Positions 10,507 through 63,032 of a stretch of DNA of 64,000 bases are shown piece by piece; the first letter of the stretch is position 1; each line of letters starts with the position of its first letter. The stretch spans positions 4,616,501-4,680,500 of the forward strand of contig CAKKNE010000002.1 in NCBI GenBank assembly GCA_918797485.1, given 5' to 3'. The notes under the pieces were generated by a model, which searched no databases, was not told the origin of the DNA, and was given only the letters and a program-made list of their open reading frames with translations. Origin of the DNA: Pelagomonas calceolata (lineage: Eukaryota; Sar; Pelagophyceae; Pelagomonadales; Pelagomonadaceae). Made by a program: the position numbers and the translations under genes.

Positions 10507-13435
10507 ATGCTCCAGGGCGGCAACATGGACCGCGTAGGTGCCTACAACCAGCGCTCGAGCGCCTACAACATGTGCGGCGCGAACGAGGACGACGTCGTCG
10601 AGCCCCAACGAACTAGACGAAGTAGACGCCCGAGGGAGTACGATGAAGTACAATATGAGGACGACGACTCCCAGTCGACGGCGCCCTCGCGCGGCGACCG
10701 TGGGAGCTTTGATGATGCGCCGCCGCGACGGCCGCGTCGGCGCCAGCGGGAGTGGCCCCAGGAGGACCCCGAGGACCAGCTTGCGCCGCCCCCGACCCAC
10801 GAGAGAAGGGCCGTGAAAGCAATAGCATACACGAGACAAGATGAAAAGAGCCCTGGTCCCGCCGCGACGCCGTCGTCCAAAGGCTCGGCGTTCGGCAAGC
10901 TGTTCACACCTAAAAAACCGAAGGAAAGCTTCAGAACGAAAACTCTGACCGAATTAACTGAGACGGGAACGTCGAGCGTAGCTAGGGTCAAGGAGGGCAA
11001 CGTCAAGTTCCCGAATTCGTGGTCAGGACATAAGGTCACGGTCTTCAATCCCTATCACCCGCGGCGGCTCATGTGGGACGCGACGATGCACCTTTCTGTG
11101 TGGAAATGCCCTTCAATCTGGGGTGCTGCTCTCTGGATACGGTCGAGTGTATCCCTTGGAGATCGTGTCCGAGTTTGGGCCGAAAACATGGCCGCGGTGC
11201 CGAGATAGCGAGACGCGATAAGCTGACTCACACACAGGCTCATACTCATTATCATTATTGCGGTGGTGACGCCCTTTGAGTTGACGTTCCTGGACGGGGT
11301 CCCCTTCGGCAAGGCCGACTGCCCGACGGACAAGCACGGCTGCCCGGCGCCGGGCGACTTGTTCTTGTTCTGGCTCAATCGTTTGAGCGACTGCTTCTTT
11401 TTGGTTGATATGGTCCTGACGTTCAACACGTCGTTCTTCGATAGTATACGAGGGCGGTGGGTGGAAGAGCGGTCGGTCATCGCGCGGGAGTACCTCCGTT
11501 GCTGGTTCTGGCTCGACGTCCTCTCGCTCCTCCCCTACTCCCTGATGTTCTCGGAGATCAAGGCTGCTGGATTAATCAGAGTCATCCGTTTAGTTCGACT
11601 ACTGAAGCTCCTCAAGCTCGCGAAGCAGCCGCGGATCATGGCCAAGCTCCGCCAGTTCGTGACCATGCCCATCAAGCAGCAGACGCTGATCAAGTACTTC
11701 TTCATCATCTTCTTCATCATCCATTGGACGGCCTGTACGCTACGATTACTTACGTCATTTGCGGTCGGCGACTGTCGGCCCAAAGGTAGCGATATGCACA
11801 GTGGCCTACCTTTTGATGATGAATGTGCGAGAACCTACTTGAACACGAACAGGAGGTGGGGCCAGGGCCCCTGGTCGCAATATGCCTCGGCCATCATCTG
11901 GAGCATCGGCGCGATGTCGGGCGAGGCTTATCTGCCCGCGAACATGGAGGAGACCGTATTAAACACTTTAGTGATGCTCATGGGCATCGTGGTCATGGCC
12001 TTCTTGGTGGGCGAGCTCTCAAATATTCTCGGGAATTTTGATCCGGTCGGGAACGAATTCGAGCAGACCGTACGGGCTCGGTGTCTCGTATCTCAACAGT
12101 TTTACGCCATCGACGCGCGTCGTCTCCAGGAGAGCTTGTGAAGGGTGGTCGCTTTTGCGATTCTGAGGCCGTTCGCACCGCGACGGTTCCGTCCGCACAC
12201 AGGTCGACAACCTCGACGCGTACTTTGAGAGCAACCAGTACCCGGAGATGCTGCGGTTGAAACTGAGGGAGTATGTACTACTTACTGAACCCATATATAG
12301 AGAAAAGTATTACATCGAGCTCATGAAGCAGTTCTCGCCGGCTCTGAGGACTACCGTGGCCAATTTCCAGTTGTCTCATTATGTGGCCAATATCCCCTTT
12401 TTTGCATTTGCTATTCAAAGAGGCTGCGGGTTTGAAGAGGGCGCCATCATGGACGTGCAGGAGCCCCCGCAACAGGTCGGTTCTGGTGACAGGGAGGAAG
12501 TGTGGAGACGAGCCACCATCGTGGCTGCGGATCCCATGACCGAAGGCTACGAGGTGGCCTACCATGACGGGCAAAGTACGAATGAAACGAAGGTTTCTGT
12601 GAATAGGCTGCGGGCGGTAGATCAAAGGTTACACTACCGGATGATCCACATTAACAGATTAAGGCGCAAGTTCGTGGGCGACTTCGCGTTACGGCTAGAA
12701 CCCATGTTATTTATGCCGGGCGACGCCATCATCGAGGCGAACTGGTCTCGATGCGATTCCCTCTACTTGGTGACGACGGGCACGTGTATCGTGGTCAAAG
12801 AAAGGTTAAACAGTATGTTCGATATTAGATTGAGACACTACGGTTCCACGATCGGTGGCGACATCTCGACGTTGCTGATAGCCGGCGAGAAACGGCGCTT
12901 ACGACACTACGACTGCAAGGCGCACAACGCCGTTCAAATTTACAAGATGGCCGACGGTGAATTTCTGAGCTTGATGGCCTTCGAGAACTACGCGGAGTTC
13001 GCGCGGACGATCAAATATTTCGGGTTCTGCATGCTCGTCAAGATGCTCACGTTCCGACAGATGGAGAAGGCGACGGCGGCCGGCCTGACGCTGCAGCAAC
13101 AATTCGCCAAGCTCGAGGCGGCGAATCCGTTCGTGCGCGAGAATGAAACTCCTAAAAGTAAGGAAAAGCCGGTCAAGGTTCGCTTGGCTTCCGATCTAAC
13201 TGGTTTGTTGGATCAGCTCGGTTTGTCGAAGTCTGTCAGGTCGAAAGTTGTAGCGGAGTTGAAGAAGCACGAGATCTACAACCTCGAGACTGCTCAAAGT
13301 CTGAGAGTGGAGGACTGGGACATGCTAGATTTGAAGATGGGGACGCGGCGCCTAATCCTGGCGAAGCTCGGCGCGCTCGGCGGAAGTTATTTGGGGTCGT
13401 TGACGGACCCGTCCCAGGGCTGCGCGCGGCCCTAG
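10507..13435 (+). CDS. CNG/HCN-type cation channel with cNMP-binding and SAM domains (3 exons)
   Basis: Exons 10507-11099, 11238-12069 and 12203-13435 join in frame to 885 residues. A disordered N-terminus (1-190) is followed by S1 (LILIIIIAVV, crossing the first splice), S2/S3, a charged S4 with regular Arg/Lys (RVIRLVRLLKLLKL, about 305-325), S5 and a pore region near 410-435. The pore lacks K+-selective GYG and reads GAMSGEAYLPAN, as expected for a non-selective, CNG-like cation channel. A C-linker helix block (IYREKYYIELMKQF) is interrupted at about 558-616 by a small beta-rich, Tudor/SH3-like segment. It then continues to a cyclic-nucleotide-binding fold (about 621-738) and ends in a SAM domain (about 796-870). 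Both introns are described separately. Ligand and ion preference are not tested. Confidence 0.85.
11096..11237 (+). mobile_element. Introner-like element forming channel intron 1
   Basis: The element begins CTGTGTGGAAATG and ends CTGACTCACACACAG; the right end reverse-complements to CTGTGTGTGAGTCAG, so the ends are imperfect inverted repeats of the same family as the clean introners at 35-63 kb. Splicing at 11100 (GTGG) and 11237 (AG) keeps frame and rebuilds the S1 membrane helix. The 8 bases on each side (GCACCTTT and GCTCATAC) agree at only four positions, so the target duplication is eroded or was never perfect. Here the donor GT lies inside the terminal repeat rather than in the duplication. 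Confidence 0.6.
12070..12202 (+). other. Channel intron 2 (133 bp, possible old introner)
   Basis: The GT donor at 12070 follows ...GAG CAG ACC, and the acceptor CGCACACAG ends at 12202; both sides are in phase 0. The 3' end is like the introner family, and the interior contains CGCCATCGACGCG, a motif shared with several other introners in the window. The left end does not resemble the family's inverted repeat and no target duplication is visible, so origin from an introner is only suggested. Confidence 0.6.
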
Positions 13436-13503
13436 TTCTTTGGCCCTCTTGTGGGCGACATATCCACTGCTTGCTTGCTTAGTATAAGTATATAGTTGCG
13501 GAC

Positions 13504-15198: not shown

Positions 15199-15375
15199 TC
15201 CGAAAATCGATGCGTGCCCCGCACGATATCAACCAGCACTAGTCCTAGCACCGTAACAGAAATCCCACGAGCATGAATCGTGCCAAGAATCAGCGCCGCA
15301 AGGAGACTAAAGTTAAGTTAAACACGGGCTGGGGCGCATGGAAGATACGCGGATGGGGGAAGAGCCAGAGAGGGC

Positions 15376-17607: not shown

Positions 17608-18702
17608 ATGCATCGACTCATTCTCACCCTGCTGCTGACCAGCGCCGCAGCGATGCGGTTCGAGGACTATGAGGTCGCATTCAACAAGAAGTATTCCTTC
17701 GGAGAGCGCATGATTCGCCGCGCGCATTTCGAGCAGTCGCTCCAACGCGTCGCGGCCCACAACGCGGGCGGCCACTCGTGGAGAGCTGGCATCAACCAAT
17801 TCTCTGACCTCTCCGACGAAGAATTTAAGAACAGCTACCTGATGAGACCGCAAAAGTGCAGCGCCACGAACACCGTCGGCGTTCCGGGGGAAACTGCGCA
17901 TCTCCGCGGCGCCGAGAACAAGAAGAAAACGGCCGATCTGCCCCCGAGCATCGACTGGCGCTCGCGCGGCATCGTCTCCGAGGTGAAGAACCAGGGCGGC
18001 TGCGGAAGCTGCTGGACCTTCTCGACGACTGGAGCACTCGAGGCTCACCTCGCGCTCAAGGCGGGCGCGTGGCGAGCGCCGCGATTGTCCGAGCAGCAGC
18101 TGGTGGACTGCGCGGGCGCCTTCGACACGAAGGGCTGCGACGGCGGGCTACCATCGCACGCTTTTGAATACATAAAACATGCCGGGGGCCTCTCGACCGA
18201 GTTCGCCTATCCGTACCACGCGAAGGACCAGAAGTGCTCGTTCAACGCCTCGGCGTCGGTCACGGCCCCGCAGTCCAACGGCATCGGCATCCGAGTGCCC
18301 GGTGGGAGCGTGAATCTCACCAAGGGCGACGAGGTGGCTCTCAAGTACTACCTGGCCACCAAAGGGCCGGTGTCGGTGGCGTTCGATGTGGCGTCCGATT
18401 TCAGAGATTACAAGAGCGGCGTCTACTCGTCGACGATCTGCAGCCACGACGCGGAGCACGCGAGTCACCGTGCGAAAAAAAATGTTGCGACGCGAGCTCA
18501 CCGGTCGATGTCCACGCAGGTCAACCACGCGGTGCTGGCCGTCGGCTACGGCGTCGATCCGGTCTCGGCCAAGCCCTACTGGCTCATCAAGAACTCGTGG
18601 GACTACACCTGGGGCGATTCGGGATACTTCCGCATGGAGGCGTTCAAGAATATGTGTGGTGTTGCCGACTGCAACTCGTTCCCTGATCTATACGGCGCCT
18701 GA
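17608..18702 (+). CDS. Papain-like cysteine protease (C1A) with I29 propeptide
   Basis: The ATG at 17608 gives a signal peptide (MHRLILTLLLTSAAA). An I29 inhibitor prodomain follows (FEDYEVAFNKKYSF, then INQFSDLSDEEF). The mature enzyme starts near LPPSIDWRSRG. The catalytic Cys lies in GGCGSCWTFS (Cys at about residue 135), the His in VNHAVLAVGYG and the Asn in IKNSWDYTWGDSGYF. Between VYSSTICSHDAEH and VNHAV lie 20 in-frame residues with no counterpart in the family. Their DNA ends like an introner (see 18460-18519), so they are probably an intron that happens to be open. The enzyme is likely lysosomal/vacuolar or secreted. About 365 codons unspliced. Confidence 0.9.
   Translation: MHRLILTLLLTSAAAMRFEDYEVAFNKKYSFGERMIRRAHFEQSLQRVAAHNAGGHSWRAGINQFSDLSDEEFKNSYLMRPQKCSATNTVGVPGETAHLRGAENKKKTADLPPSIDWRSRGIVSEVKNQGGCGSCWTFSTTGALEAHLALKAGAWRAPRLSEQQLVDCAGAFDTKGCDGGLPSHAFEYIKHAGGLSTEFAYPYHAKDQKCSFNASASVTAPQSNGIGIRVPGGSVNLTKGDEVALKYYLATKGPVSVAFDVASDFRDYKSGVYSSTICSHDAEHASHRAKKNVATRAHRSMSTQVNHAVLAVGYGVDPVSAKPYWLIKNSWDYTWGDSGYFRMEAFKNMCGVADCNSFPDLYGA
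18460..18519 (+). mobile_element. Possible introner inside the cysteine protease gene
   Basis: The right end ACCGGTCGATGTCCACGCAG is nearly the same as the right end of the clean introner at 35350-35428 (CACTGGTTGATGTCCACGCAG). The left side contains CCGTGCGAAAAAAAATG, a plausible decayed partner repeat. The only donor that keeps frame is a GC at 18460 (GCGAGT), giving a 60-bp GC-AG intron; the GT at 18464 would shift the frame. It may instead be translated as 20 extra residues. Confidence 0.45.
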
Positions 18703-18705
18703 CTC

Positions 18706-18770: not shown

Positions 18771-18842
18771 AACGACAATTGCGCGAAGACATGTGTTCCC
18801 CCTTCCTGTGTAATATACGATAACATCTTACAAAGATAGTGG

Positions 18843-23815: not shown

Positions 23816-24896
23816 TTATTCACATGCCGTGCGCGCGACCACGAACACGACGGGCTGCGCCCGCGGACGCCCTCCCCGGACCGGGTCGAGAACGAGCCCG
23901 ATGCACGGGTGCCGCCGCAGGAAGCGATACAACGCGCGCATCTCCTGGTCCGGGCGCACGCACTTCATGTCGTCTCCGCACCTGCCCCGCTGGAACTCGA
24001 CGAGCTCGTGGCTGTGCGGAAATCCAATGTCACGCGACGCCTGCTCGATGGCGAATATTCCACACAGCTGCATACAAGTGGAGGCGCGTGCCGACGACGA
24101 AGCGCTCGTGGAGCCGTTCGAGCACGTCGAGGGCGCCCTCGTAGAGGTCGTTGTCGATGTTCAGGAACGTGACGTCTCCAGCGTTCGCCTCCAGAAATGG
24201 CCCGAGCGTCTCGTTGAACAAGCCAGTGACGAGCTCGACGCCCGCGCGTACCGGCGGCGTCGGCGTGCCGTGGTCCTCGCGCCAGCTGAACGCGCCCTGC
24301 TTCCACTTGGGGCGGGCCTGGCGCTTCGACGTCTTCCATTCGGTAGGAATGCCCTCGAACGTGTCAAAACCAACGACGCGCGGCAGCGCCCCGGGGAAGC
24401 CGCGGGCCTCGAACGTGTCCCGGAGTGCGGCGGTCGCATTTATAGATGTGCCCCGATACACGCCGAACTCGAGCCACAGCGCCGGCCGCGCGTGCGCCCT
24501 CGCAAATGTAGGATCCTGCGTCGCGCGCCACAGCGCCACCGTCAGCGTCTCGTACGCCTGGAGCGCGCTGCGGTATTGTCGAGCGTCGCGGTCGGGCCAG
24601 CCCACGCGTTTCAGAGCAGCGCGCGCGGCCTCAGCGTCCGCGACGGCGGGCCGCCGCGCGACGACGTAGCGCGCGAGGGCCGCGGTCAGTGGGCCGACGC
24701 CGCCGCCTGACACCGGTATGGCGCGCGCGCCGTGGCCCGGGCAGTGACCGATGCATGGCCAGCTCGCGTAGTTATACTTGTTGTTGTGCGCCGCGAGCCG
24801 CTCGGCCGCGTTGCGCCGCGCGCGCGCCAGGGCGGTCTCGCCGGTCTCGTCCGCGACCGCGGCCGCGCAAGCGGCGAGCAAAAGAGTCGCGCGCAT
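23816..24896 (-). CDS. TylF/MycF-like O-methyltransferase with signal peptide (2 exons)
   Basis: Exon 1 runs 24896-24076 and exon 2 runs 24011-23816; joining them gives 338 residues. The start MRATLLLAACAAAVA is a signal peptide; an ATG at 24929 is an alternative. The SAM-binding core WLEFGVYRGTSIN, the VGFDTFEGIPTEW segment, ELVTGLFNETLGPFL and the metal-binding-type FLNIDNDLYEGALDVL follow the macrocin-O-methyltransferase family closely. The splice rebuilds GTRLHFHELVEF, which is the family sequence at that place and supports the intron. Secretory targeting is unusual for the bacterial relatives but occurs in algal homologues. Substrate unknown, perhaps a glycan. It lies 2 bp downstream of a small ORF on the same strand. 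Confidence 0.8.
24012..24075 (-). mobile_element. Introner of 64 bp in the TylF-like gene
   Basis: Minus-strand reading: GTATGCAG, then CTGTGTGGAATATTC at the left end and TTGGATTTCCGCACAG at the right end (reverse complement CTGTGCGGAAATCCAA). These are clear inverted repeats of the same family. The donor GT sits in the 8 bases just before the left repeat and the acceptor AG ends the right repeat, as in the clean copies. Bases after the element (CCACGAGC) do not match GTATGCAG, so no intact target duplication remains. Confidence 0.75.
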
Positions 24897-32061: not shown

Positions 32062-32833
32062 CTACACGGCGAGCTCCGCCGGCAGGAAGTACCGGAACGC
32101 GTCGCGCAAATCGTCGTCCCGGCCGCGCGCGAAGAGGCGGTCCATGGACCGCGCGACCTGCTTCTCCGACAGGAGCCCCTGGTCGTAGCGGCGGAGCGTG
32201 GCCAGGGCCTCGGCGTGGGCCGTAGGACCCAAACCGCGGCGGAGCTCCTCCAAAAACTCGGCGACGAGCCGCGACTCGTCTTCATCAACAGCGATGATGC
32301 CGGCGTCGTCCTCGTCGTCGGTGTTGGGATCGGGATCGCCGACGACGAGGAAGTAGCGCGCGACCTGTGCGGTACGTCGCGTCGATGGCGTGGCGCCACG
32401 AAGAGTTGATTTCCGCGATTTCCGCACGGCGCGATACGACGCGCCGCAACCGCGTGCCGACGGATTTTCGGATCTTATCTAAATCGTCGCCGTACTTGCG
32501 CACGGCGCGCTCGAATTTTTGAGAAGTCTCCGGCGACCAGTCCTTGCCCCGTATCGCCATCTCGCGCTCGAGCGCCGCGGGGTCCTCCACAAACGACCCG
32601 CCCCGCCCCTCGGCGGGCGGCGGGCGGCGCCGGTCGAGCCGCGGCAGCGACGCCTGGTGCCGCGGCCCAATTTTTATTTTGGCGTGGCTCCAGTCCGTCT
32701 TGTTCGAGAGCGGCCGCGGCCGCGGGCGGCTCTCCTTGCGGACCGCGGTGTGCATCGCGCGGTCGGCCTCTTTTTCCGCGGCCGCATAGAAACCCTCGGG
32801 CAGTTTGCCGGGGCGGCGGCGGGCGGCGAGCAT
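32062..32833 (-). CDS. SANT-domain nuclear protein (2 exons)
   Basis: Exon 1 32833-32438 and exon 2 32364-32062 encode 232 residues. The SANT/Myb-like helix set is KDWSPETSQKFERAVRKYG, then DLDKIRKSVGTRLRRV, with ARYFLVVGD supplied from exon 2 across the splice. This resembles SANT domains of MIER/CoREST-type co-repressors (W-S-x-E-E-x-x-x-FE-x-A-L-x-x-YGKDF). The N-terminal part is basic. The C-terminal part is acidic and then helical (ESRLVAEFLEELRRGLG), possibly a dimerising region. No ELM2 domain was seen. It probably acts in chromatin regulation. Confidence 0.75.
32365..32437 (-). mobile_element. Introner of 73 bp in the SANT gene
   Basis: Minus-strand reading: GTATCGCG, then CCGTGCGGAAATC at the left and GACGTACCGCACAG at the right (reverse complement CTGTGCGGTACGTC). 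Bases after the element are GTCGCGCG, matching the left GTATCGCG at six of eight positions, so a slightly decayed target duplication is likely. The donor GT is the start of the left duplicate and the acceptor AG ends the right repeat. The splice is in phase 0 and joins RRV to VARYF, completing the SANT domain. Confidence 0.78.
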
Positions 32834-33500: not shown

Positions 33501-36500
33501 ATGAGCGGCATCCCGCGCAGTAGGGAAGGCGAGCTCCTCAAAAAAGAAAAGGGCCCCTTGGGAGCGAAGTGGACGCGGAAACTCGTCGTTGTTGATGGAA
33601 GAAAAGGCACGGTAAGGTATCATCGGCCGACGGACGACAAGAGCGATGTTCCCAGAAAAATCTTCCATTTGAAGTCCATGACGCTCATTGAAGATTGCAT
33701 GGGCCCGAAGAAAGCCCCCCACGCTCTAGAATTGAGGGATCTCAAGGGCTATTCTCTTATTTTAGCTTGCGAGAGAGGTGCAGGAGAAAAAGAGGCCTGG
33801 CGGAGCCTGTTAGCACCCTTATGTGCGGGCGGCACGCCTGTTGCTGCAGCTCGCACGGCATCGACGGACTGGGTCGATCCACAATCAAAACCACCGGAGG
33901 AGGACGAGCCGTGGCCCGTGCCGCAAACTTTTGACAGTGCTCTGGCCAAGCCGTTCGAGACCTACGAGGCGACCTTCCTGCCGGACCAACCGCTGGGTAT
34001 CCAACTACGACTCGAACCGGAGGTGGATGGGAAGCGCGCCATCCTCGTGCTCGAGGTCAAGGACACGTGTCCGCAGAAAGGTACTATACAATCGGGCGAC
34101 GAGTTGGTAGGGGTACAAAATGAACCGCCCTTGACACCACGAACGACCGATGAATTCAAGAAGTGCACGACCGAACTGGCGCGAAAACCGAGACCATTGG
34201 TACTAGTTTTCCGGCGGGAGGTCAGTGAGACGCCGTTCGACGAGCCCGACGACTCGCCCAAGGTCCGCGACGCAGCGTCCTTACGCCATCGACGCGACTC
34301 GGCTCCATCTTCTGAGCCAATTCATTCGCGTCGGGGCCTCGCGTCAATGGCGTCTTCACGAGACCGCGCCGCCGCGACGCCGTCATAATGATCACAACGC
34401 AGGCGCCCTCCTTCGACGAGGCCCCTCCTTCACATGTCGTGGACGAGCCCGTGCGGCTGAACGCGACGTGCGAGCAGCCGCCTACGTCGTTAACTCTCTG
34501 TTTGGCTCGTAGTGATGAATTTTCGCGCGCGTGTGTCCGAGTCGAGAAAGGATCATGTGCTGGGTTACAGGTATTAGATGACCTCGTGGCCCTGGACGCG
34601 GAGGACCTGACGCTCGTCGACGCGGAGACAGCTCTAGAACGCCTGACGCAGCGATTGATGCGGGGACCCTTTCCTTGCAGGGTCGGCGTGCTGAGGAGGC
34701 CGAGCGTCTTCAGCCTCGAGTTCCCCGACGACGGGAGGCCTCTTGGTGTCGTATTACGACTGATAACACCTCCCACGGGCGGCGCGTCGCGCGTTCTAGT
34801 GGAGAGTATACATAGAGACGACGGGCCGGCGGGGGAATTAGAACCGAGGAATGATGAATTGGTGGCGATCGAGGGCGAGCCCATTGGCCGGGACTGCGGG
34901 CCGGCCGACTTTGATGCTTTATTACTCAAATTGAAGGGTGCTGCAAGACCGCTCAAACTCACATTCGTGCGCGCGGGGAGCATGTCCCAGGACCCGCGCG
35001 ACGCCACGATTTATGGAAGAGCCGTCATCGAGGAGCCGCCTGTATCCTTCGAGGAAACCAGAGCGGCGGCGATGTCGCCGTCAGCGGCCTTCGGGGCTCC
35101 GGTCGATCCCGTGGCAGCAGATGATGGAAGTGACTGGGGCGACCCTCCTCCTTCAACGGACGATTCTTCATCCGACGAGGGCGCCGCAATTGGTGTGGAT
35201 GCGAACATCGTGGAAGTCTCCGACGACGCGGCGGCCGTCTCTGATGAAGAGCCGCCGCCTCCACCCATCGTCGTGCCGCCGGTCGCCGACGTCCCGGCGC
35301 CGACGCCGTCGAAGCTCGCGGCATTTATGGCCAGCACGCCGAACCCCACGTCGCCGACCGCGTGAAAATCAAATTTCAGGCGTCTCACGCGACATGAGGA
35401 CCTCAATCACTGGTTGATGTCCACGCAGGTCGCCGAAGCCCACAAGTCAACAGACGCCGTCGCCGCCGCCGCCTCCCCAGGACGAGTCCCCGGGCGAACT
35501 TGGAAGGAGCGTCATCGAGCAGGTCGCGTCCTTCGGCGACGCGCCGTCGGCCGCGCTTGAGTTGGAGGCGGTACGGGCCGAGCTCGAGAGCAGCGCGCGA
35601 GCGTTGGCGCGGGCTCGAGAAGAGCGGTCCGCGGCGGTTCGGGAGCTGGAAGAGGTGGCCGAGGACGCGAAGGTGCAGCGGGAAAGAGTCGGGAAACTGG
35701 AGCAAGAAAGGAGAGCGTCGCTCGAGCTGCAGAGCGCGTCTGAACAGTTAAGTAAGCAGCGCGACTCTTTACAGTCTGAAGTGGAAGCGTTGCGCAATGA
35801 ACTCAAAGCGCGGGAAGAGAAGAACCGGGAGCTCGAGGCGTCGACGCGGGCGAGGGACGCGTCCCTAGAATCTCTACGCAAGAAGCTGTCCGAGGCCGAG
35901 AGCCGCACGACGAAGGCTGAACAGGCCGTCTTAGACAGACGGGCCTCGCTCGAGGTCGCGGAAGATCATGTGAGGGCGGTCTCGGCGGCGGCGCCGATGG
36001 CGGTTGCGGCGGCGGCGCCGAGGGCGGACGCCGCTGCGGCGCCGAGGACGGATGCCGCGGCGGCGCCACCGGAGAACGTCCGAGCTTCCGGAATCGAGGC
36101 CGTAATAGCCGACGACTACGTGAACGGGGACTGCTCTGGAGAAGACTTAGCTCAATTGTTACAAAACTGCGTCTCACCCCCTCCCTCCAAGGTAGAGTTG
36201 GTCACAGCATTGATCAGGGTCGTGCCCGATTCATTGACCCAACCCTTCTGGTGCGATGCGGACGAGGCCGGACATGCTCTCGCACAAGCGGAAGGGGACT
36301 GGGTCGCCGTGCTCGATACGGTTGTAGAAGCCGTAGCACCAAGTTTTGAAGCATCACTACCCTTACTTTTCGGCGAAATAATGAAATTAGCTGATGAGCC
36401 TCGCAAGAAATTAAGTGAGTGGCGCCGGAAGGCCGCCGACATCTCGACGCAAATCAAGCACGACAAGCGTACCGTAAATGCCGAAGCGCTGCGGAGGACG

Positions 36501-38858: not shown

Positions 38859-39235
38859 GAGTGCTCTCTCCCGCCTCTTTAAGCGATTTTGATACATCTG
38901 GATACAAGTCTAGCGACTACAAGCACGGGTTTTTCACGCTAAAATAATAGCTTATTAGCTTGACGCACGCATATCGATACAACACTGCCGAGTCAGCGTT
39001 CGAGAGGCCACAACGCGATATATAGGACTCGCAACCGCAACAAAGCTCGTTGAACCAGCTCTCTCAAAAAAGTGCACTTTTGCCTGTTTGCAGCTAGCCA
39101 ATTATCCGTGGTCTAGTCCAGCGTTCGTTCGCGTGCGCGCTCAACGACTCCTATTTTTGCCAAGCGATCCGTATTCTGAACAGTAATGGCGGACGTAGAA
39201 GCCGCCGCGACGGCGAGCGACGACGGCGGCGAACG
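38859..39235. other. Spacer before the RND fragment
   Basis: About 375 bp. A 17-codon frame at 39186 (MADVEAAATASDDGGER) ends at TGA, overlapping the first codon of the RND exon. It could be a decoy or a remnant first exon. No other coding signal was found, and no part of the missing RND transporter is present here. Confidence 0.35.
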
Positions 39236-39973
39236 GTGAGCGGCTGGGGGCTCGGTGTCCTGGAGTCGATTCTTATTGTCATAGTGATTGGCTTTTCGGT
39301 AGACTACACCGTCCATCTGGCCGATAGCTACATGCAGTCGCGCGCTATCGACCGCGAGGGCAAAGTTACGGACGCTCTGACGCACACCGGCATGAGTGTG
39401 CTGAGCTGTGTGGAAATCAACCAGTGTGTCGGGTGCACCCGACATTTTTCACTAAGTCATTTCTCGGTGATGACGTGACCGTGCTGGCTCCGTCGAGCGG
39501 TGACGAACCGGCATCGCCACGCCATCGAGCAGCCATCGCGTCGATGGCGTGGAGGACGACGCGACGATTCAGCACGAATACGCCGTAAAATTTTGATTTC
39601 GACACAGGTGCTGAGTGGGGCCATCTCGACCATCCTCGCGTCGATCCCGATGCTGTTCACGCAGATTATATTTTTCTACAAATTTGGCGTCTTCATCCTC
39701 CTGACGATCGTGTTGTCACTGATCTTCAGTCTGTTCTTCTTCGCCAGCGTTCTGGCGGAGATCGGCCCCGTCGGCAAGCGCGGCCAGGTGAGCCTGCTCT
39801 ACCGGGATTGTGTCAACCGTGCGAAGGCTGAGCTCGACGAGATGGACGAGGCGCAACGGCTCGTGGACGAACAGTCGGTGCGCAAGGAGGGCTCGGTCAA
39901 GCGGTCCTGGTCGCGGGCATCCGTCGACGACGCCCCGGCCGAGGAGTCCTCGCCCGCGCCCGTAGACCTCTAA
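39236..39973 (+). pseudogene. C-terminal fragment of an RND sterol-sensing-domain (Patched/Dispatched-like) gene
   Basis: Exon 39236-39397 and exon 39608-39973 join in phase 0 to about 176 residues: ESILIVIVIGFSVDYTVHLAD, then ALTHTGMS joined to VLSGAISTILASIPMLF, then two more hydrophobic helices and a charged tail. This is the last half of the second transmembrane bundle of Dispatched/Patched/NPC1-type transporters (the GxSVDYxVHxAxxY and GxSVxxGAxSTxxA blocks). Family members are over 800 residues, so at least 80 percent is missing upstream, where only 377 bp separate it from the previous stop. It has no good ATG (the open frame starts at GTG). It is either a 5'-truncated copy or a gene whose earlier exons I could not see. 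Confidence 0.6.
39398..39607 (+). mobile_element. Introner of 202 bp with perfect 8-bp target duplication
   Basis: GTGCTGAG at 39398-39405 is repeated exactly at 39608-39615. The element starts CTGTGTGGAAATCAACC and ends TTGATTTCGACACAG; the ends match at 14 of 15 positions as inverted repeats. The core contains GCCATCGAGCAGCCATCGCG followed by TCGATGGCGTGG, a nested inverted repeat shared with other copies. The donor GT opens the left duplicate and the acceptor AG closes the right repeat, so splicing yields GMS-VLSGAIS, the family sequence. It is the longest and cleanest copy in the window. Confidence 0.95.
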
Positions 39974-40002
39974 ACAAGATTCACATTACACCACATCCTA
40001 TA

Positions 40003-44066: not shown

Positions 44067-45150
44067 CTACCAGTTGCCCATGCCGGGGTACTTCACGGGC
44101 GCCCGCGGCGCCGCCTTGTCGCCGCGCGCCCACTCCAAGCTGGGCGCCACGTAGATGTCGAGCATCTCCTTGTTCTTGCCGTCGCGGCGGCGCACCAGGC
44201 CGGCGACCATCTCGTGGACGAGCTTGATCGTGAACTCGGAGTCGTCGAGGCCGGTGTGCGTCTGGATGCAATCGTAGAAGGTGTAGATGAAGAATGCTAG
44301 GCCCTGCGAACGGAACGCCACACGTGACCGACGTTCGAAGATGGCGTTTCGCGCGGGCTCGTGCGGTGCTCATTTGGTCGCCGTAGGGGGAGTCGACGGG
44401 AAATTGGCCGTTGCCTTTGGCACCAAGGATGTAGCGGATGAACTGGAGCGCGTCGGCGAAGTGCTCAGTAGGGATGCCCAGCTCGCGCAACCACTTCTTC
44501 TCGGCACCGCCAAAGTGAAACGCGAGCACGTCGTCGCTGCTGCTTCTCTCGATTAATTTGGCCGCGTATGCCTCGAGGGCGGCGCGCTGGGTTGCGGTGA
44601 GCGGCGGCGGCTGGAAACGGAAGCGATTTTGTCTTCCAGTATCAAAGGTGTTGCCCTGGCCGCGGTTCGACAGGTTCATGATCTCCGTCATGGGGCCCTG
44701 GGCCGTTTTTTCAGCGGCACCGACCTCGTAGTACAATCCATCAGTCCCCTCGCCGTCGAGAACGAGGACGGAAGCGTCGTTCTCGATCTTCTCGATCCAA
44801 ATGAGGGTGTTTTGGGCCCAAACTTTCTCACCACTCAGTAATTTATCAACGTCGACTTTTAAGGCATGGAGCAAGTAATCAATGGCCATTGCCTGCGCGG
44901 AAAGAACCTCTCGCGGAGCGTTCATGTCGACCTCAACGCCATCGACGCGACGGCTGCTCGACGGCTCGACTCATTGGTTGATTGCTACACCGACCATGAC
45001 AATTCCACGCGTGGCGACGATTTCTCTGAGTTTGATCACCAGTGGCGCGTCCTTGATCTTGGCTAATTTGCTACCGCCCCGAGTTAAAGCATCGTTGCGA
45101 TTTTTAAATCTATCCCTGTGGAAAGAAAGGTCTCCGGCGTTACTCGTCAT
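44067..45150 (-). CDS. DEDDh-type 3'-5' exonuclease candidate (3 exons)
   Basis: Proposed exons: 45150-45001 (MTSNAGDLSFHRDRF...), 44892 to about 44376, and 44303-44067. The first splice removes the introner at 44893-45000 in phase 0. The second intron has no clear GT donor and its left edge is unresolved (a GC donor near 44376 is possible). VLVLDGEGTDGLYYEVGA resembles the Exo I strand with a D-x-E pair. HTGLDDSEFTIKLVHEMV resembles the Exo III H-x-x-x-x-D motif of DnaQ/ERI1 nucleases (HxGLDDS). Exo II would be near LAFHFGGAEKKWL but is not clear. RNA or DNA trimming is therefore plausible, not established. Confidence 0.5.
44893..45000 (-). mobile_element. Introner of 100 bp with decayed target duplication
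   Basis: Minus-strand reading: GTCATGGT, then CGGTGTAGCAATCAACC (14 of 17 as in the 39-kb copy's left end) and, at the right, GAGGTTCTTTCCGCGCAG followed by GCAATGGC. Left and right flanks agree at five of eight positions. The core GCGTCGATGGCGTTGAG is shared with other copies. The donor GT opens the left flank and the AG closes the right end, and both exons stay in frame. Confidence 0.7.
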
Positions 45151-47719: not shown

Positions 47720-50700
47720 ATGCTACGCGGCCTTGTAAGCGCTGCCCTTGTGCTGTTCGTGACCAGCGCGCTGCCGCTACGGCCCCCCGCGCGCATGAGC
47801 AGCTGCCAAAAGCCCTGGAAGGGCTGCCCCGAGGAGGATGAGGGCGGCTCCCAGCTCGGAGAGAAATTAACTGGCTTCTCCGAGGCCATGGCCATGTACG
47901 AAGACAAAAGCGGCAGCACGTCCGCGCGGGCCGGCGAGAACGGCCTCGACCGCGCTGCCTCCAAGGGCTTGGCGACGAGCGCCGCCGCGACGATGGCGCG
48001 GCTCCAGCTCTACAAGAACCACGGGGCGGACGGCAGCAAGTCCGACGAAAGCGGCAGCACGCGTTCGCGGGCCGGCGAGAAAGGCCTCGACAGCGCTGCC
48101 TCCAAGGGCGTGGCGACGAGCGTCGCCGCGACGATGGCGCGGCTCCGGCTCTACAAGAACTACGGCGCGGACGGCAGCAAGTCCGACGAAAGCGCCAGCA
48201 CGCGTGCGCGGGCCGGCGAGAACGGCCTCGACCGCGCTGCCTCCAAGGGCTTGGCGACGAGCGCCGCCGCGACGACGGCGCGGCTCCAGCTCTACAAAAA
48301 CTACGGGGCGGACGGCAGCAAGTCCGACGAAAGCGCCAGCACGCGTGCGCGGGCCGGCGAGAACAGCCTCGACCGCGCTGCCTCCAAGGTATTCGCGACG
48401 AGCGTCGCCGCGACGATGGCGCGGCTCCAGCTCTACAAAAACTACGGGGCGGACGGCAGCAAGTCCGACGAAAGCGCCAGCACGCGTGCGCGGGCCGGCG
48501 AGAACGGCCTCGACCGCGCTGCCTCCAAGGGCTTGGCGACGAGCGCCGCCGCCGCGATGGCGCGGCTCCAGCTCTACAAAAACTACGGCGCGGACGGCCT
48601 CTACGCCGACGCGTTCGACTCCGAGACTACAAAAGGCGCGGCGAAGGCCGAGCTCGACCCGAACAAGTACCAGGCGGGCGGGGTGCACGCGCTCCACGCC
48701 ATCGAGCAGGTCAGCTACGTGCGGTACGAGAACTACCGGCTGAACGGCAGCGATGCCGGCGCAAACTCGGAGACGGTGACGGCCTCGGCTGCGGGCCGAG
48801 CCTCTGTCCTCCCTCAGGTTGACCAGCTCAGCACGTCAGCGGCGCGGCTCCGCGTGAAAGAAGCATCAGCGACCCCTGTGCGCCTACCTCGTTCCGCACA
48901 GGCGCTCGGCGCGGTCAAGACGATGCTCGAGTCCAACCTGATCAAGTGCGAGCAAGCAGCGGAGGGCTGCTCTGGCGAGACTATAGGAGGCTGCCCGCTC
49001 GCCGGCAGCGCGAACAAGCCGGCCGGCGTCGACGTCTTGGACGTCGCGTCCGCCGAGCCGCCGCTTGTGCCCGGCACCACATTGATGTTGGCGGCCTGGA
49101 ACGCGACCAAGTGGGACTTCGGCGAAGAAGAGTGGGCCCAGAGCAACCTCGTTTGGGGCCTCGTCAAGTTTCTTGCGATGTTGGTCAAAGTTGTCTTTAT
49201 GTGCGGTTGCATTTCGGTCTACGTAGTCTTTATGTTCGGTTGGGTCGTTCCGCGGCTCAGTAGCTTGGCAAAGGGCGCTGCCTGGAGCTCGTCCGTCGTC
49301 GGCTACCTGCTCTTTTGGCCAGAGATCGCCCTCGTGGCGGCGGCGACGACTTCGGTCCGCGGCAGCGACTACACCATTACAAAGAGTTCCAAGATCAAGA
49401 CCAATGAGTCTCCGAGCTCGTCAGTCCAAAGCCTTGAGCAGCGGCGCGTGCTCTCGGGCGGCCGCAGCGACTACGCCATTACGAAGAGTTCGAAGATCAA
49501 GACCAATGAGTCTCCGAGCTCGTCAGTCCAAAGCCGTGAGCAGCGGCGCGTGCTGTCGGGTTACGTGATGACCGACAGCAACATTAGAACGGCCGTCGCG
49601 GCGTGGCTCTCGGACGCGAGTGCTGCCGAGACGACGTACGGCCACATTTCGACTTGGGACACATCGGGGGTGACGGACATGTCGGAGTTGTTTAAAGATG
49701 CATCGTCCTTCAACGAGGACATTGGTGCGTGGGACACCTCGGGCGTCACGACGATGGAGTACATGTTCAGCAGCGCCTCGGCCTTCAACCAGGACATCGG
49801 CGCGTGGGACACCTCGGGCGTCACGGAGATGGGAAGGATGTTCACCGCTGCCTCGGCCTTTGACCAGGACATCGGTGGTTGGGACACCTCCGGCGTCAAG
49901 GGCATGCAATATTTGTTCAGCGGCGCCTCGGCCTTTAACCAGGACATCGGCGCGTGGGACACCTCCGGCGTCACTGACATGACCCGGATGTTCGAATACG
50001 CCTACGCCTTCAACCAGGACCTCGGCTGGTGCGTGGACGACGACGTGGACCTGGACATGGCGTTCGACTTCACGCCGTGCCAGTCGACGTCGTGCGGCGT
50101 CGAGCGGGGCCAATTTGTAACTGCGAGCGGCAGCTGCGAGTCTACTCCTGCGCCGACTGCGTACTACGACGGCGTGCATCACACAGACGTAAGCATCCGC
50201 ACGGCCGTGACGGCTTGGTTGAGCGACGCGACGGCCGCCGAGACGACGTACGGTCACATTTCGACTTGGGACACATCGCGGGTGATGGACATGTCGGAGT
50301 TGTTTAAAGATGCATCGTCCTTCAACGAGGACATCGGCGCGTGGGACACCTCCGGCGTCACAACGATGCGGTACATGTTCAACTCCGCCTATGCCTTTAA
50401 CCAGGACATCAGTGGTTGGGCAGTCGACAGTGTCAAGGACATGTACGCAATGTTCGAATACGCCTCGGCCTTCAACCAGGACCTCGGCTGGTGCGTGGAC
50501 GTCGGCGTGGACCTGACAAACGCGTTCATCACTGCTGGTATGTCGGCTGGTGGTACCCCGTGCGCGTCGACATCGTGCGGTGTCACGCATGTGGCAGGCG
50601 GCTGCGCGCCGACGCCGGCACCGACGCCGAGGCCGACATTTACGCCAGCGCCGACAGCCTCCCCCCTGGTCGCGGACGACAGCACGATTAGAACGGCAGT

Positions 50701-51478
50701 GGCCCTCTGGTTCTCGGACAACGCCGCCGCCATGAGCACGTACGGCCACATTTCGACGTGGGGCACATCGGGGGTGACGGACATGTCGTGGTTGTTTTGC
50801 GTGCGGCAGACTTCCGAGAACAGTCCCCATTTTTCGATGGACGATCCGATGGACGAGCCGGCGTCTTATTATGATTCCTGTGTGCTTCCGGCATCTGCGT
50901 CGTCCTTTAACGAGGACATCGGCGCGTGGGACACCTCTGGTGTCACGACCATGTACTGGATGTTTGGCTACGCCTCGGCCTTTAACCAAGACATCGGTTC
51001 GTGGGACACATCGCGGGTGACGGACATGTCGCATTTGTTCCGACACGCCGAGGCCTTCAACGCGGACATCGGCGCGTGGGACACCTCCAGCGCCAAGAAC
51101 ATGAACTCGATGTTCCTCTCCAGCGCCTTTAACAGATACATCGGTGGTTGGGCGGTCGAGAGCGTCACGGACATGGGCTCGATGTTCCTCAGCGCCTCGG
51201 CCTTCAACCAGGACATCGGGGATTGGGCGGTCCACAGCCTCACGGCGGGGGCTATGCAAGACATGTTCGCCGAGGCCACGTCCTTTAACCAGGACCTCAG
51301 TTGGTGCTTAGACGACAGCATGACCTTTGATGCCTGGTTCAGAACTACCCCGTGCGAGTCGACGTTATGTGGCGTCTTTTGGGGCGGCTGTGACATCCCG
51401 AGCAATGGTAATGTCATGGCCAACGGGAAGCTCAGAATTGCAGTTGCAGCGTGGCTCTCGGACGCGACGGCCGCCGAC
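47720..51478 (+). CDS. Large surface protein, part 1: 47-residue repeats, membrane segments, DUF285 repeats
   Basis: The ATG at 47720 starts a signal peptide ([19 protein letters not shown]). Residues about 62-296 are five tandem 47-residue units ([20 protein letters not shown], then [17 protein letters not shown]). A hydrophobic region near 484-537 ([20 protein letters not shown]) looks like one or two membrane helices. A duplicated 34-residue block ([20 protein letters not shown]) follows. Then come about fifteen DUF285/BspA-like leucine-rich units ([41 protein letters not shown]), in three groups separated by Cys-containing and PTP linkers. These repeats form right-handed solenoids in surface and adhesion proteins. 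The reading frame leaves the DUF285 pattern abruptly at about 51475 ([11 protein letters not shown]) and becomes an artefactual Arg/Pro frame. Confidence 0.75.
47903..48607 (+). repeat. Five-copy 141-bp coding tandem repeat
   Basis: Units of 141 bp (47 codons) with very high identity between the third, fourth and fifth copies; the first two are more diverged. Repetition is in frame and lies within the surface protein. Confidence 0.85.
49362..49565 (+). repeat. Two-copy 102-bp coding repeat
   Basis: Two nearly identical blocks beginning about 49364 and 49466, each encoding SDY[16 protein letters not shown] and an EQRRVLSG end. It lies just before the DUF285 region. Confidence 0.8.
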
Positions 51479-54400
51479 CCACATCCATACCGACCACTCT
51501 GCCTACTTCGGAGCCGACGCCCACGTTCTCGCCGACGGGCACCCCGACGACCGTGCCGACGCCGGTCCCAATCTCCAAACCGACGCCGGGACCGTCAGCC
51601 GTGCCGACTCTCGTCCCGACCTCGTCGCCGTCGGCAAAGCCGACGTCCGAGCCGACGAAGTCGCCGACGAAGGTCCCGACCTCGGTGCCGACGGCGAGCC
51701 CGACGCCTTCGCCGTCGGCACCGCCGACCTCGGTGCCGACGTCGCCGACGTTTTTGCCAACTCCCCTCCCGAGCTCGGTGCCGACGTCGCGGCCGTCCGC
51801 CTTGCCGACGGCGTCCTGGTCGCCGTCGTTATTGCCGACGTCCACGCCGACTGACATGCCCCAGCGCTCGCCCGAACCTAGTGCTTTGCCGACCTCGATC
51901 CCGACGAGCGCGCCGTCGTCGGCGTCGCCGACGTCCGTGCCGACGGGCATCCCGACGCCGGGCCCGACCGTGTCGCCGACGCCCGCGCCTACCGTGCAGC
52001 CGACGAACGGCGACTGCCTCGAGAAGATCACGGACTTCTGCCAGTGCACGTACGTGCTCTTCGAGGTCTCGCACACGCTCGCGCCGACGCCGGCGCCCAC
52101 GACGGCGGTGCCCTCGCCGGGCCCGACGCCAAAGCCCACGCGGGTGCCGACGTCGGCGCCCACGAAGCGGCCCACGTACAAAGCGCCCGACGACCCCCTC
52201 CTGGCGCCGACGCCGAAGCCGACGCGCGTGCCGCGGCCCAGTCCGACCCCGGCCCCGACGAACGTGCCGACCTCGGTCCCGACAACGCCGCCGTCCCCCG
52301 AGCCGTCCGGCGTCCCGACGACGATGCCGACGCCCCAACCGTCGGGCACGCCGACGGCAGCGCCGACGCTGCTGCCGACGCTCGTCCCGTCGTCCGTGCC
52401 GACGTCCCCGCCGACGTCCCAACCGTCGCCGGCGCCGTCAAAAACCCCGACGACCGTCCCGACGTCGGTCCCGACGACCGAACCTACTGCATACCCGACC
52501 AGGACCCCGACGGCCAAGCCGACGTTTCCTCCGACGAGCGCTCCTTCGGCAAGCCCGACCTTCGACAGCCACGCCCCGACGCCCATGCCGACGACGGCAG
52601 CGCCGACGGTGAATCCGACGCTCGTCCCGACGTCCGTGCCGACGACCGAGCCGACGTCCGTGCCGACGACCGTGCCCACCGCGCAGCCGTCGCTCGAGCC
52701 CACGTGGCAATCCCAACTTCCAACCAAAACCCCGACGTCCGTGCCGACGACCGAGCCGACGTCCCAGCCGACAGTCGCGCCGTCCGGCGTGCCGACGAGC
52801 GCGCCGACGTCCCGGCCGTCGCCTTCGCCGACGCTCGTCCCGACGCCGTCGCCCACCGCCAAGTGCCCGGCCATGGCGTGGCTCGAGGGCGACATGAGCG
52901 GCACCGGCGGGAACGGCGCGCGCACCGGCGGCGCCCTCGGCGACAACCTGGGGGGCCGAACCGAGGGCGATGGGGCGCTCCTCAACGCGGAGGACATCCG
53001 CGCCCAGGGCGGGCTCCTGGTCCTCGACCACAACAGGAATTGGGGCATCAAGGCCACGTGCTCGAACAACGCGGCCAAAAGTTGCGAGAGAGATGAGGAT
53101 TGCGGTACCGGCAACACATGCGAGGCCAACGGCTACGAGGGCGGCGCGGCGGCGTCGAGCGGCATCGACGCCTGCTGCCGCTTCGTGCAGACGACGTGCC
53201 CGACGCCGCTGCCGTCGTCCGCGCCGACATCGCCGCCGTCGCCGAGCCCGACGCTGCTGCCGTCGACGACCCCGACCAGCGTGCCGTCGAGCGTGCCCAC
53301 GGTGCCGCCGTCGGAGACGCCGACGTCCGTCCCGACGGCCGAGCCCTCGGGAACCCCGACGAGGATGCCGACGCCGCGACCGACGTTATCGCGCTACCCC
53401 TCGCCCGTGCCGACGATTCCCGCGCCCTCGCCCATCCCGACGAGCGTGCCCACGCCCTGGCCGACGACGGCGAGCCCCTCCAAGATCCCGACGCCCGCGC
53501 CCACGCCGGCGCCCACGCCGGCGCCGACGAGCTGCCGCTGCGTCGCGTACTACGGCGTCAACCGCGGCGTCGGCAACTTTGCGTTCCGCGACGACGGCCT
53601 CGTCTACGGCAGCCTGCCCGCGGTCAACCCGGCGTCGGAGCACTACGACCTCGCCTGGGCCGCCGGCGCCATGTGCACCGGCACGCCGACAGCGGGCGGC
53701 ACGTGTCCGGACTTTTCTACCTATGCCGACTCGGAGAAGTCGGCCGCGAACTGCCCCGCCGGCTGCAACTACTACGCGCCGCTCACGGACGGCTTCAACT
53801 GGGACGACTACCTGGCGGCGCGGGAGCACTTCTCCACGATAGCCACGAAGCAACAGGGCGCGGCCTCCTTCGCCGCGAAGAACGACTACGCGCCGCTGGG
53901 ACCGGGCGCCGCTGGGAAGAACGGCGTGACTGCGAACACTGGGAACATCACCGCGGCAGAGAGCGCGCTGCTGGACGGGGGATCGACCCCCCCCAACAAG
54001 TACAACTACAACATCACGGACATGGACAAGCGGTGCATCTACCGCATGGAACCGGAGCCGTCGGCCGCGCCGACGCCCAAGCCGTCCATCCCGCCGGGCG
54101 CGCCGGCGCCGACGCCCGCGCCGACGGTCACGCAGGCCGTCGTCGAGGTCTCGGCCGCGGTCGTGCTCACGGGCATCGACCCCACCGACTTCAACTCCGA
54201 CCCGCAGCAGGTCGAGGCCTTCGCGCAAACGATCCTCGCGACCCTGCCCGCGGCGCTCGCGGGCGCCGAGGTCACGGACATCCGAGCCAAGTCCGCGCGT
54301 CGGCGGCGACTCCAAGCGGGCAGCGTCGAAGTCGAGTACACGATCGTCGTCCGACAGGACGCGGCTACCGTGTCAGACGGCGGCCAGAGCATCTTCAGCG

Positions 54401-54629
54401 ACATTACGACGTCGCTTTCCGCGGCCGTGTCGAGCGGCGAGTTCCTCCAGACGCTCATCGAAGAGGCGGCCGCGGCGGGCGGGTCCGCCGCGATGGCGTT
54501 CATGACGATCGACGTCGACGTGACGGCGTCGACCGCGGCGATCAGTTCGGCGACCCTGACGCTCGTCATCACGACGCCGGCCCCCGTGGTGGCGACGCCG
54601 GCCCCCGTGGTGGCCCCGGCCGCCGCCGC

Positions 54630-54669
<40 letters not shown>

Positions 54670-54804
54670 AGCGACGGCGGCCTGCTGATCATCATCATCG
54701 TGGTCGTCGTCGTCGTCGTCATCGGCGGCGGCGCGGCGGCTTTCTTGGTGATGAAGAAGGGAGGCCGAGGCGCCGCCAAGATCGAGGCGTCCCCGCACAA
54801 CTAG
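51476..54804 (+). CDS. Large surface protein, part 2: Pro-Thr stalk and C-terminal membrane anchor (other frame)
   Basis: Continues from the DUF285 part but in the +1-shifted frame. It begins [20 protein letters not shown] and runs about 700 residues of P-T-x-x-P-T repeats (a likely O-glycosylated stalk), interrupted by two Cys-containing globular pieces ([20 protein letters not shown] near 52866 and [20 protein letters not shown] near 53532) and a C-terminal domain of about 150 residues ([20 protein letters not shown], then [12 protein letters not shown]) that recalls SEA-like juxtamembrane modules. It ends with poly-Gly, one membrane helix ([17 protein letters not shown]) and a short basic tail. 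No splice that joins the two frames was found. Confidence 0.7.
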
Positions 54805-54899
54805 CCCCTGAACATATCCCCCCCCCGTCGTAAACAATCGATTCACTATCGCGTCGACGTCGACAAACAATCGAGTCCTAGCACCCGGGCCGAATAGTT

Positions 54900-58475: not shown

Positions 58476-58838
58476 GGCTTATCGCTCTGGTCCGAATCGA
58501 TGCGTGCGCGCTTAGTCGGAGACGTGCTGAATGTGTCGCGTCGCTGTGCCTTTTGCAGCCACCCTGGCGAGGCGCAGGAGCTTGCAAAGAGCAGTTTTGT
58601 GAGGCAGGCTCACGCGACACCGACGAGATTACACAGCATTGGCGTAGCTCATCGGCTGCTTGAGACCATCAGCTGATAGCACACAAAAGCTCAGGCGTCA
58701 CCCGCGTCGTCAACACCAGCAGCACCAGCCAGTCTCACTTGCAGCGCTCTTGGGTGACGCGACGCCGACGAACAGAGACACCCGTCGCTCTACTGCAGCA
58801 GCGTACAGGCGTCGACGCGCCGCCGCGACGACGCACAA
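58476..58838. promoter_or_regulatory. Divergent spacer between hydratase-like and WKF genes
   Basis: About 360 bp between opposite starts. No TATA box or other motif is convincing and frames look random. Confidence 0.3.
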
Positions 58839-59366: not shown

Positions 59367-59605
59367 CGTCCGCGGCGGCGTCTGCCCTTTGGTGTGCCTT
59401 CGCTCGAGTGATGCCGGATCATAATCCAGAATCCTAGCGGCGGACCGTGGTAACAGCGGCCCGCCGCCGTGCGACGACCAGACCCGTGACGAGCTACGAA
59501 TCAAATGAGAGGCTCGGATCCCCCACGCGCGACGCGGCTCATCGGTCCGGCGCACAGGTCCTGTTGCGTTTGAGTCGAGTAATCATCAAAATTCACAGTT
59601 ACATC

Positions 59606-60934: not shown

Positions 60935-61364
60935 GGTTTTTTGGTGGGCAGCCCCGGGACCAGTTATCGCTGCGATGGCGTGCGGCCCGGGCTGTACTGT
61001 TGCCGGTAGACCTCCGAATCACTCTCGGTGGCCGGCAGGCTGCCCCGGCGCCCGCAGCCACAGCGCTTCGATTATTATCTTGGTTTGCTAGTGGGCTTAC
61101 CGGACGCTAGCTTTATTTTTACCTCTGACAACACCCTCGAAACTCCTCGAGTACTCGACGTAGACGGCGCTTGCACACCTAACGCCAATAGTCGTTGGTG
61201 GCAGTACATCCGCGTACGCCGTCGTGCCAAGCCTTTTGCAAAGAACAGCTTTGCGCCAGCGACAGCTGCAAGAGCAGTGGCGTGACGCAGGCTGCCAGCA
61301 GTCCGGTAGAATTCAGACTTCGCTCACTAACGAACAAACGACAACACGCAAAGGTCTAATAGGC
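60935..61364. promoter_or_regulatory. Divergent spacer between DnaJ and permease genes
   Basis: About 430 bp. The permease frame is open back to 61224, but the extra residues lack features and a good targeting sequence begins at the ATG at 61365. No other signal recognised. Confidence 0.3.
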
Positions 61365-62693: not shown

Positions 62694-62933
62694 TGATCGG
62701 CATGTGTTCTTCGCTCGTGTAATCTTGTAGTCTAGTCGTTTTTCCTTCGATTCCGCGCTTTCTCGCGGGTTTTGCTGACTTTGCCGCAGCGGTTTTGGAG
62801 CCATAGCCGCTCACCACTCATTAATTCTCAGAGCGAGATAAGAATATCTCGCGAACTGTCACGCGCGGCAGCACTCCGCGGTCGTAAGGCCCCCCCCTGT
62901 ATTGCTCATAACCAATAAGTGGGCCCTCACCAC
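62694..62933. other. Spacer before the AAAP exon
   Basis: No coding frame fits the AAAP transporter. The frame joining the exon after 63033 meets a TAA just upstream (62917-62919), so any earlier exon would need another intron with an acceptor close to 62920. Confidence 0.35.
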
Positions 62934-63032
62934 GTATTTACCAGTGCATAAATCAACTTGTGGCCGAGCGTGCTAAATCATGGCCTCCACGCCATCATCG
63001 CGCACCCGACTCACTGGTTGATTTGCGCACAG
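62934..63032 (+). mobile_element. Introner of 91 bp with perfect 8-bp target duplication
   Basis: GTATTTAC at 62934-62941 is repeated exactly at 63033-63040. The element begins CAGTGCATAAATCAACT and ends GGTTGATTTGCGCACAG; the ends match at about 13 of 17 positions as inverted repeats. The core has CACGCCATCATCGCGC. The donor GT is the start of the left duplicate and the acceptor AG the end of the right repeat, as in the other clean copies. Confidence 0.9.

Follow-up and report, generated by a model that had tools for sequence, protein, structure and literature searches.

Introns of Pelagomonas calceolata as probable copies of a short hAT-like DNA transposon

The 64,000-nucleotide stretch of Pelagomonas calceolata DNA analysed here (the window, C2:4616501-4680500 of assembly GCA_918797485.1) holds a set of introns with common inverted ends, which were considered as candidate introners, i.e. 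transposons that become introns. The original prediction, made from the letters of the window, was that at least seven introns share such ends. All seven were placed (Table 1), with graded profile support that is weak for two of them. The GC content of the window was 63% by base counts. For the published RCC100 assembly, described as 32.4 Mb in six nuclear contigs plus plastid and mitochondrial ones, the available passages of Guerin et al. 2022 give 63.6% (PMC9481584). Our searches covered 32,445,274 bases in 8 contigs (G000).

Table 1. Positions of the window introns and of the two hAT elements found elsewhere in the genome
Feature	Position	Strand	Duplication or donor	Element and remarks
Intron	39398..39607	+	GTGCTGAG, copies 39398-39405 and 39608-39615	202-bp forward element, 39406-39607
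Intron	35350..35428	+	GTCGCCGA, second copy 35429-35436	71-bp element, 35358-35428
Intron	62934..63032	+	GTATTTAC, second copy 63033-63040	91-bp element, 62942-63032; CAGTG/CTGTG subfamily
Older intron	44893..45000	-	donor GTCATGGT; duplication decayed to 5/8	element 44893-44992
Older intron	11088..11237	+	GC donor (GCACCTTT); duplication decayed	other-core subfamily
Probable old introner intron	24012..24075	-	donor GTATGCAG	ends in CCGCACAG; core present; frame kept by excision
Probable old introner intron	32365..32440	-	donor GTCGTATC (other donors would keep the frame too)	ends in CCGCACAG; core present
hAT transposon	L031:1521-4389 = C5:1220521-1223389		duplication ACACTCGG	open 832-aa transposase frame; inverted ends CTAGGTTGCCA; single-copy
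Second hAT element	L032+L033 joined 3049-6699 = C4:4499549-4503199		duplication TTGCTCGC	721-aa frame; ends CAGGGCAGCAG

In three of the introns the element is bordered by perfect 8-bp duplications beginning with GT, exactly as had been predicted. A profile built from 36 intact copies, each 150 bp or longer, was searched against the window; its best hit in 11 control sequences had E 0.069. The element at 39406-39607 is itself part of the profile, hence its E value of 1.5e-65 is not independent; excision of its intron kept the frame, and a match to the MMPL/sterol-sensing domain spanned the junction. For the intron at 35350-35428 the profile match ended at 35428 with E 1.1e-4, and the frame was checked by codon usage. 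The third was matched at 62997-63032 with E 1.9e-5. Its frame 3' of the junction reached 23.3 bits for PF01490 (Aa_trans) at a cut-off of 25.6, in a match that starts after the junction, and appears to read as the C-terminus of an amino-acid transporter. Among the older introns, 44893-44968 matched the profile with E 3.4e-6 and excision kept the frame, while the joined peptide had no Pfam match. The element at 11096 yielded E 0.22 with the main profile and was 90.5% identical over 95 bp to the intact element L053:1378-1571 (L-numbers denote analysed DNA stretches). Excision of 11088-11237 kept the frame, a weak PF00520 (ion-channel) match below the cut-off spanned the junction, and a search of the peptide against the PDB gave no match. 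With the two probable old introns, a weak PF13578 match crossed the junction in the 24012 peptide; excision of 32365-32440 kept the frame, with the codon-usage frame unequal on the two sides. End-like matches at 18503, 19232 and 34284 were left out because the profile cannot tell them from chance.

The family is dispersed throughout the genome. A 17-base element end with up to 2 mismatches matched 2330 times (1162 + 1168), compared with 3 matches (2 + 1) of the reversed control. A genome search with one copy yielded 888 candidates, and the 40 that were scored were 93 to 100% identical over 201-203 bp and lay on contigs C1-C6, the value of 100% being the query copy itself. The full-length element measures 203 bp. 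The 36 profile copies had a median pairwise identity of 0.94 with a 5th percentile of 0.56, which we take to reflect misaligned or wrongly turned copies. The inverted ends of the prediction are real, yet the 17-bp form fits one end only; the repeat shared by both ends is 15 bp long (CTGYGYGGAAATCAA). Inward of it the ends diverge, one continuing with CCAGTG and the other with AATTTTA, which gives every copy a direction. The inner core that had been noticed turned out to be a 12-bp inverted repeat, CCACGCCATCGA...TCGATGGCGTGG in the profile consensus. RNA folds of one copy were better than those of shuffled sequences in both orientations (z -3.8 and -6.3), which is at least partly due to the inverted ends and the inner inverted repeat; we claim no function for them. 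An Rfam scan of the window returned no match, and the 21-base element end was not found in viral contigs.

Target duplications were surveyed in the window plus twenty 10-kb stretches (264 kb) by pairing ends 30-400 bp apart with the flanks ignored. Ten of the twenty (L009-L015, L017, L023, L025) had been picked since the genome-wide end search listed an end there; the ten that had been spaced evenly (100 kb) contained 3 of the 48 copies analysed below. A perfect 8-bp duplication bordered 17 of the 25 end pairs and 19 matched in at least 7 of 8 positions; one pair is false, its ends belonging to two adjacent copies. The 48-copy set comprised pairs with a duplication of at least 7/8, or at least 6/8 if both ends were within 2 mismatches. 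Stretches L034-L053 are those that best match one element copy. In L007, L008 and L034 the central copy was removed by the filter, as were end pairs such as window 44893, L021:161, L022:3264 and L028:8130, and L002 and L004-L006 were excluded for their overlap with L009-L011. In this set, filtered at 6/8, the duplication was perfect in 36 copies, 7/8 in 9 and 6/8 in 3.

The gene strand of each copy was called from the codon usage of its flanks, trained on 47 long frames and blind to the duplication. Codon usage called no strand for window 62942, and the strand-specific tests thus used 47 copies. On the gene strand all 47 duplications started with G, and 46 with GY (33 GT and 13 GC; the remaining one was GA). 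Given a GY background of 0.173 in the flanking exons this corresponds to P 3e-34. At the opposite end of the duplication, RC as the mirror motif occurred in 15/47 (background 0.18, P 0.02). A donor from the duplication and an acceptor from the element, as predicted, therefore fit 46 of the 47 strand-called copies; besides GT, GC also fits as a donor. Relative to the gene, 25 of the 48 copies were forward, 20 reverse and 3 unassigned. The ends of the main subfamily start with CTGTG and both are AG-giving, so that the element suits either orientation. The sequences support the view that donors are GT or GC and that the element can be used both ways round.

If the copies are spliced, their removal should restore the host genes. 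Cutting out the first duplication copy together with the element left the best codon-usage frame the same on both sides in 44/48 copies. Of the 47 strand-called copies 43 kept the frame, and in 39 of these retention would cause a frameshift or a stop. Ten of the 44 joined peptides, chosen mostly since a family was recognisable, were compared with Pfam. A domain spanned the junction in nine, reaching only about 5 residues past one side in L041 and L011:6890; in the tenth, from L050, the matches stop before the junction. The cysteinyl-tRNA synthetase of L015 and the class II aldolase of L049, the latter with a GC donor, were gapless at the junction when compared with solved relatives. Database proteins from wild sources (P-numbers, without organism names) gave a similar picture: proteins 97-99% identical read straight through the aldolase junction, and P0145, 86% identical, through that of the synthetase. 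P0006, with 97% identity at the aldolase, comes from the source 'merc', presumably a metatranscriptome catalogue and hence RNA-derived. The straight-reading aldolase proteins, P0006 included, may derive from element-free strains and are no proof of splicing.

Taken together, the introns are best explained as copies of a short, non-autonomous DNA transposon of the cut-and-paste type, a miniature inverted-repeat transposable element (MITE), that creates an intron upon insertion; we put the probability of this reading at about 0.9. A transposase, probably of the hAT superfamily, would insert the element with an 8-bp stagger, whereby 8 bp of the gene are duplicated. The upstream copy would act as the 5' splice site wherever these 8 bp, read on the gene strand, start with GT or GC. 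The element end TTGATTTCCACACAG would supply the 3' splice site with its branch-point-like TTGAT, pyrimidines and CAG. Both ends of the main subfamily carry this sequence, so the element should be spliceable in either orientation. Excision would give back the old coding sequence exactly. Insertions lacking a GY donor would break the gene and presumably be lost by selection.

Several observations weigh against this reading. The frame was not kept at L009:3788, L012:6162, L001:1501 and L035:700. L053:700-902 is full-length, yet has GAAACGAC on the called gene strand and no GT or GC donor at the usual place. In the window, profile values of E 0.04 (24012-24088) and E 0.013 (32270-32431) are both barely better than the best control, and among five window peptides compared with Pfam the TylF and Myb matches end just short of the junction. 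The transporter-like gene hosting the element at 39406 (window 39187-40000) lacks an upstream part found in wild P0127, and its start, ATGGCGGACGTAGAAGCC, matches the start of P0136; judged by these comparisons it may be truncated or rearranged and may not work in this strain. A seemingly truncated host gene and a copy without donor are what ordinary, unspliced MITEs in broken frames or unexpressed genes would produce, and our case is built on DNA and protein sequence. We nevertheless regard unspliced MITEs as very improbable: they would account neither for the GY rule on the gene strand, the restoration of frames and the domains that run over the junctions of the synthetase and the aldolase, nor for the intron length peak of about 210 bp stated in the accessible text of PMC9481584, which compares with 211 bp for duplication plus element.

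A comparison between relatives, proposed with the original prediction, bore out that sites filled in one lineage can be empty in another. L054 (NZGT01000054.1, assigned to a Spirochaeta sp. MED672 bin) is syntenic with C6:2669048-2678806 and 82% identical over 7760 aligned positions, so by its sequence it is probably eukaryotic DNA of a relative placed in the wrong bin. Within a kinase-like gene (PF02958), L054 carries an element with the duplication GTCGGCCG where G000 is empty, and G000 carries an older element 13 bp further on where L054 is empty. The sites are thus reciprocally empty. The neighbouring gene, which we take to encode a biotin-dependent carboxylase, has four one-sided intron-like insertions, most without visible intact ends. 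L054 also has an intron of about 107 bp at 5889-5998 whose orthologous place in G000 is empty. It has no CTGTG ends, resembles several other G000 places (80-87%) and is perhaps a member of a second introner family.

The window site at 39398 was empty in the wild proteins P0123 (99% identical over 83% of the query), P0125 (100% over 68%, 84 members) and P0127. P0128 and P0129 (16 and 4 members) instead read NYRVHPTHWLTSTQ before the junction and VLSGAIST after it. Their pre-junction parts scored 75 and 182 with the reverse and 17 and 31 with the forward translation of the element copy L010:3320; with the window's own copy the values were 65 and 66 for the reverse and 17 and 34 for the forward direction. 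Because the element reads forward in the window, site 39398 has three states in different lineages, i.e. empty, reverse-filled and forward-filled. A further break in P0123 and P0142, with ...STQ before AT.xLGF, suggests additional insertions within the same 130 codons. The diverged C-terminal tail of P0127 (residues 154-201) is matched by about 8 other G000 places at 50-80% identity; it may be a further repeat by which this gene is interrupted in wild forms.

Copies that are alike from end to end and lie in genes might also have multiplied by an RNA route, in which introns are reverse-spliced and copied, as has been described for fungal introners (PMC9860276, in the passages available). Since 8-bp duplications, inverted ends and both orientations are unexpected under reverse splicing, we consider this route to be improbable in the extreme and retain the DNA transposon.

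Besides the main subfamily the genome harbours at least two variants. Ends of the form CWGTGCRYAAATCAA occur 157 + 165 times genome-wide with a control of 0, e.g. at window 62942, L039:323 and L028:8800. The other-core subfamily includes L053:1378, window 11096 and one intron in L055. Among the first 100 listed places of CWGTGCRY ends a hand count gave 19 close pairs, of which 14 were CAG/CTG, 5 CTG/CTG and none CAG/CAG. The absence of CAG/CAG pairs among those listed (2.5 expected, P 0.02) is expected if one AG-giving end is required. The only pair in the kilobase range among the 100 places, C1:2814120-2816177, consists of two separate short elements.

What moves the element was approached via its ends, its targets and a search for transposases. 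hAT elements have ends that start like CAGNG, and CAGTG stood on one end in 14 of the 19 close subfamily pairs just mentioned. The 8-bp duplication also favours hAT, and position 7 of the duplication was A in 19/47 copies (P 3e-4). Position 2 was T in 33/47, a figure confounded by selection for the donor. The hAT transposase Hermes prefers nTnnnnAn, and its published insertions include GTGTGAAC, GTGTACAC and GTGTCAAC (PMC10368747, PMC2803484, as far as the available text goes). Duplication length, target motif and the CAGTG-ended subfamily suggest a hAT transposase on the grounds of sequence. We named the family hAT-like rather than hAT, since no carrier with introner ends was found among the ends listed.

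Against hAT it counts that the main subfamily starts with CTGTG and not with CAGTG. In addition, the search for an autonomous transposase with the same ends, recommended with the original prediction, found none: no transposase lay within an element with introner ends in the genome, where ends were listed incompletely and a carrier may be missed. The hAT search (PF05699) returned two single-copy genes, both inside elements with non-introner ends (Table 1); the element on C4 is bounded by identical inverted ends of 20 bp, CAGGGCAGCAGAAGGGCAAG. When the next base after the end was set to G or T, there were 48 + 47 matches (control 0), with no obvious long element among those listed. The lack of such a transposase and the CTGTG ends could mean that the same introner mechanism is driven by a non-hAT transposase (Mutator, P, Merlin or an undescribed type), with the GY rule being mainly a matter of target choice and not of selection; GY was indeed found on at least one strand in 48/48 copies, L053:700 having it on its other strand. 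The types searched were hAT, KDZ, MULE and P-element. MULE gave no match while its control worked, which argues against a Mutator-type mover; KDZ and P-element gave none either, and as their controls also matched nowhere these results are uninformative. Moreover, target choice alone does not yield a strand-specific rule, i.e. GY in 46/47 at the gene-strand start versus RC in 15/47 at the end. A non-hAT mover combined with target choice is therefore unlikely in our estimate, though well worth bearing in mind.

With a hAT transposase as the probable mover, the preference of hAT for its targets would result in many duplications starting with GT and so predispose the element to become an introner. 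Duplications from targets of the type GTnnnnAC would be ready-made 5' splice sites. A 3' splice site would arise if the ancestral end changed once, from CAGTG to CTGTG (...CACTG to ...CACAG on the other strand). A change on one end would give a subfamily that is usable in one orientation, and changes on both ends one usable in both, like the expanded subfamily. Selection for splicability of a target-biased transposon would then bring about a mass gain of introns that continues today. Ongoing gain is suggested by the 8-bp window site, which holds a forward copy here but no copy or a reverse one in wild relatives. That the path from hAT MITE to introner is visible in this one genome is a tentative proposal, to which we assign slightly less than even odds.

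Elsewhere in the window, 49571-51322 consists of tandem 75-bp coding repeats, presumably repeats of the DUF285/BspA type of surface proteins, and 51412-54800 is a long proline/threonine-rich frame of low complexity.

Burst-like intron gain is an old question, and the copies described here are numerous, young and variable among wild relatives. They offer a testable rule, namely GY on the gene strand and AG at both element ends. Selection, splicing and the choice of targets should be separately measurable in this alga of the open ocean, for which transcriptomes and a finished genome exist. The observation on which this work was based is confirmed, and its interpretation, which had read the mechanism correctly, is supported.

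Huff, Zilberman and Roy (2016) reportedly described introner elements in Aureococcus anophagefferens and Micromonas pusilla that are short non-autonomous DNA transposons. They reportedly carry one splice site and obtain the other from duplicated gene sequence, so that splicing restores the transcript. The P. calceolata element is like them in non-autonomy and in splice-site supply, a likeness by description. This kind of element is thus already known. The only publication we found that pairs introners with Pelagomonas is Guerin et al. 2022 (PMC9481584), with one sentence on this species in the text available. It states that intron lengths of P. calceolata peak near 210 bp and are introner-like; introns of about 210 bp are stated for pelagophytes, and the peak is called characteristic of Aureococcus Introner Elements. 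Because the element and one duplication copy amount to 203 + 8 = 211 bp, these are very probably the same elements. The available passages on P. calceolata are without ends, duplication, donors, superfamily or presence/absence; compared with them, the present analysis adds the element's anatomy, the proportion of GC donors, the use of both directions, the likely superfamily and the three states of one site. Hermes and other hAT elements have in common with the present family the 8-bp duplication, short inverted ends, GTnnnnAC among the published targets and, in one subfamily here, CAGTG; they differ in that the main subfamily has CTGTG and that no transposase with these ends was found. Inverted ends plus target duplication occur in only part of the known introner families. 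The introners of Symbiodinium belong to this part: in the available text of Gozashti et al. 2022 (PMC9860276) they have inverted ends, carry the 3' site and take the donor from the duplication. Inverted ends, duplication donor and element acceptor are therefore common to both, with 4-bp duplications in Symbiodinium and 8 bp in P. calceolata.

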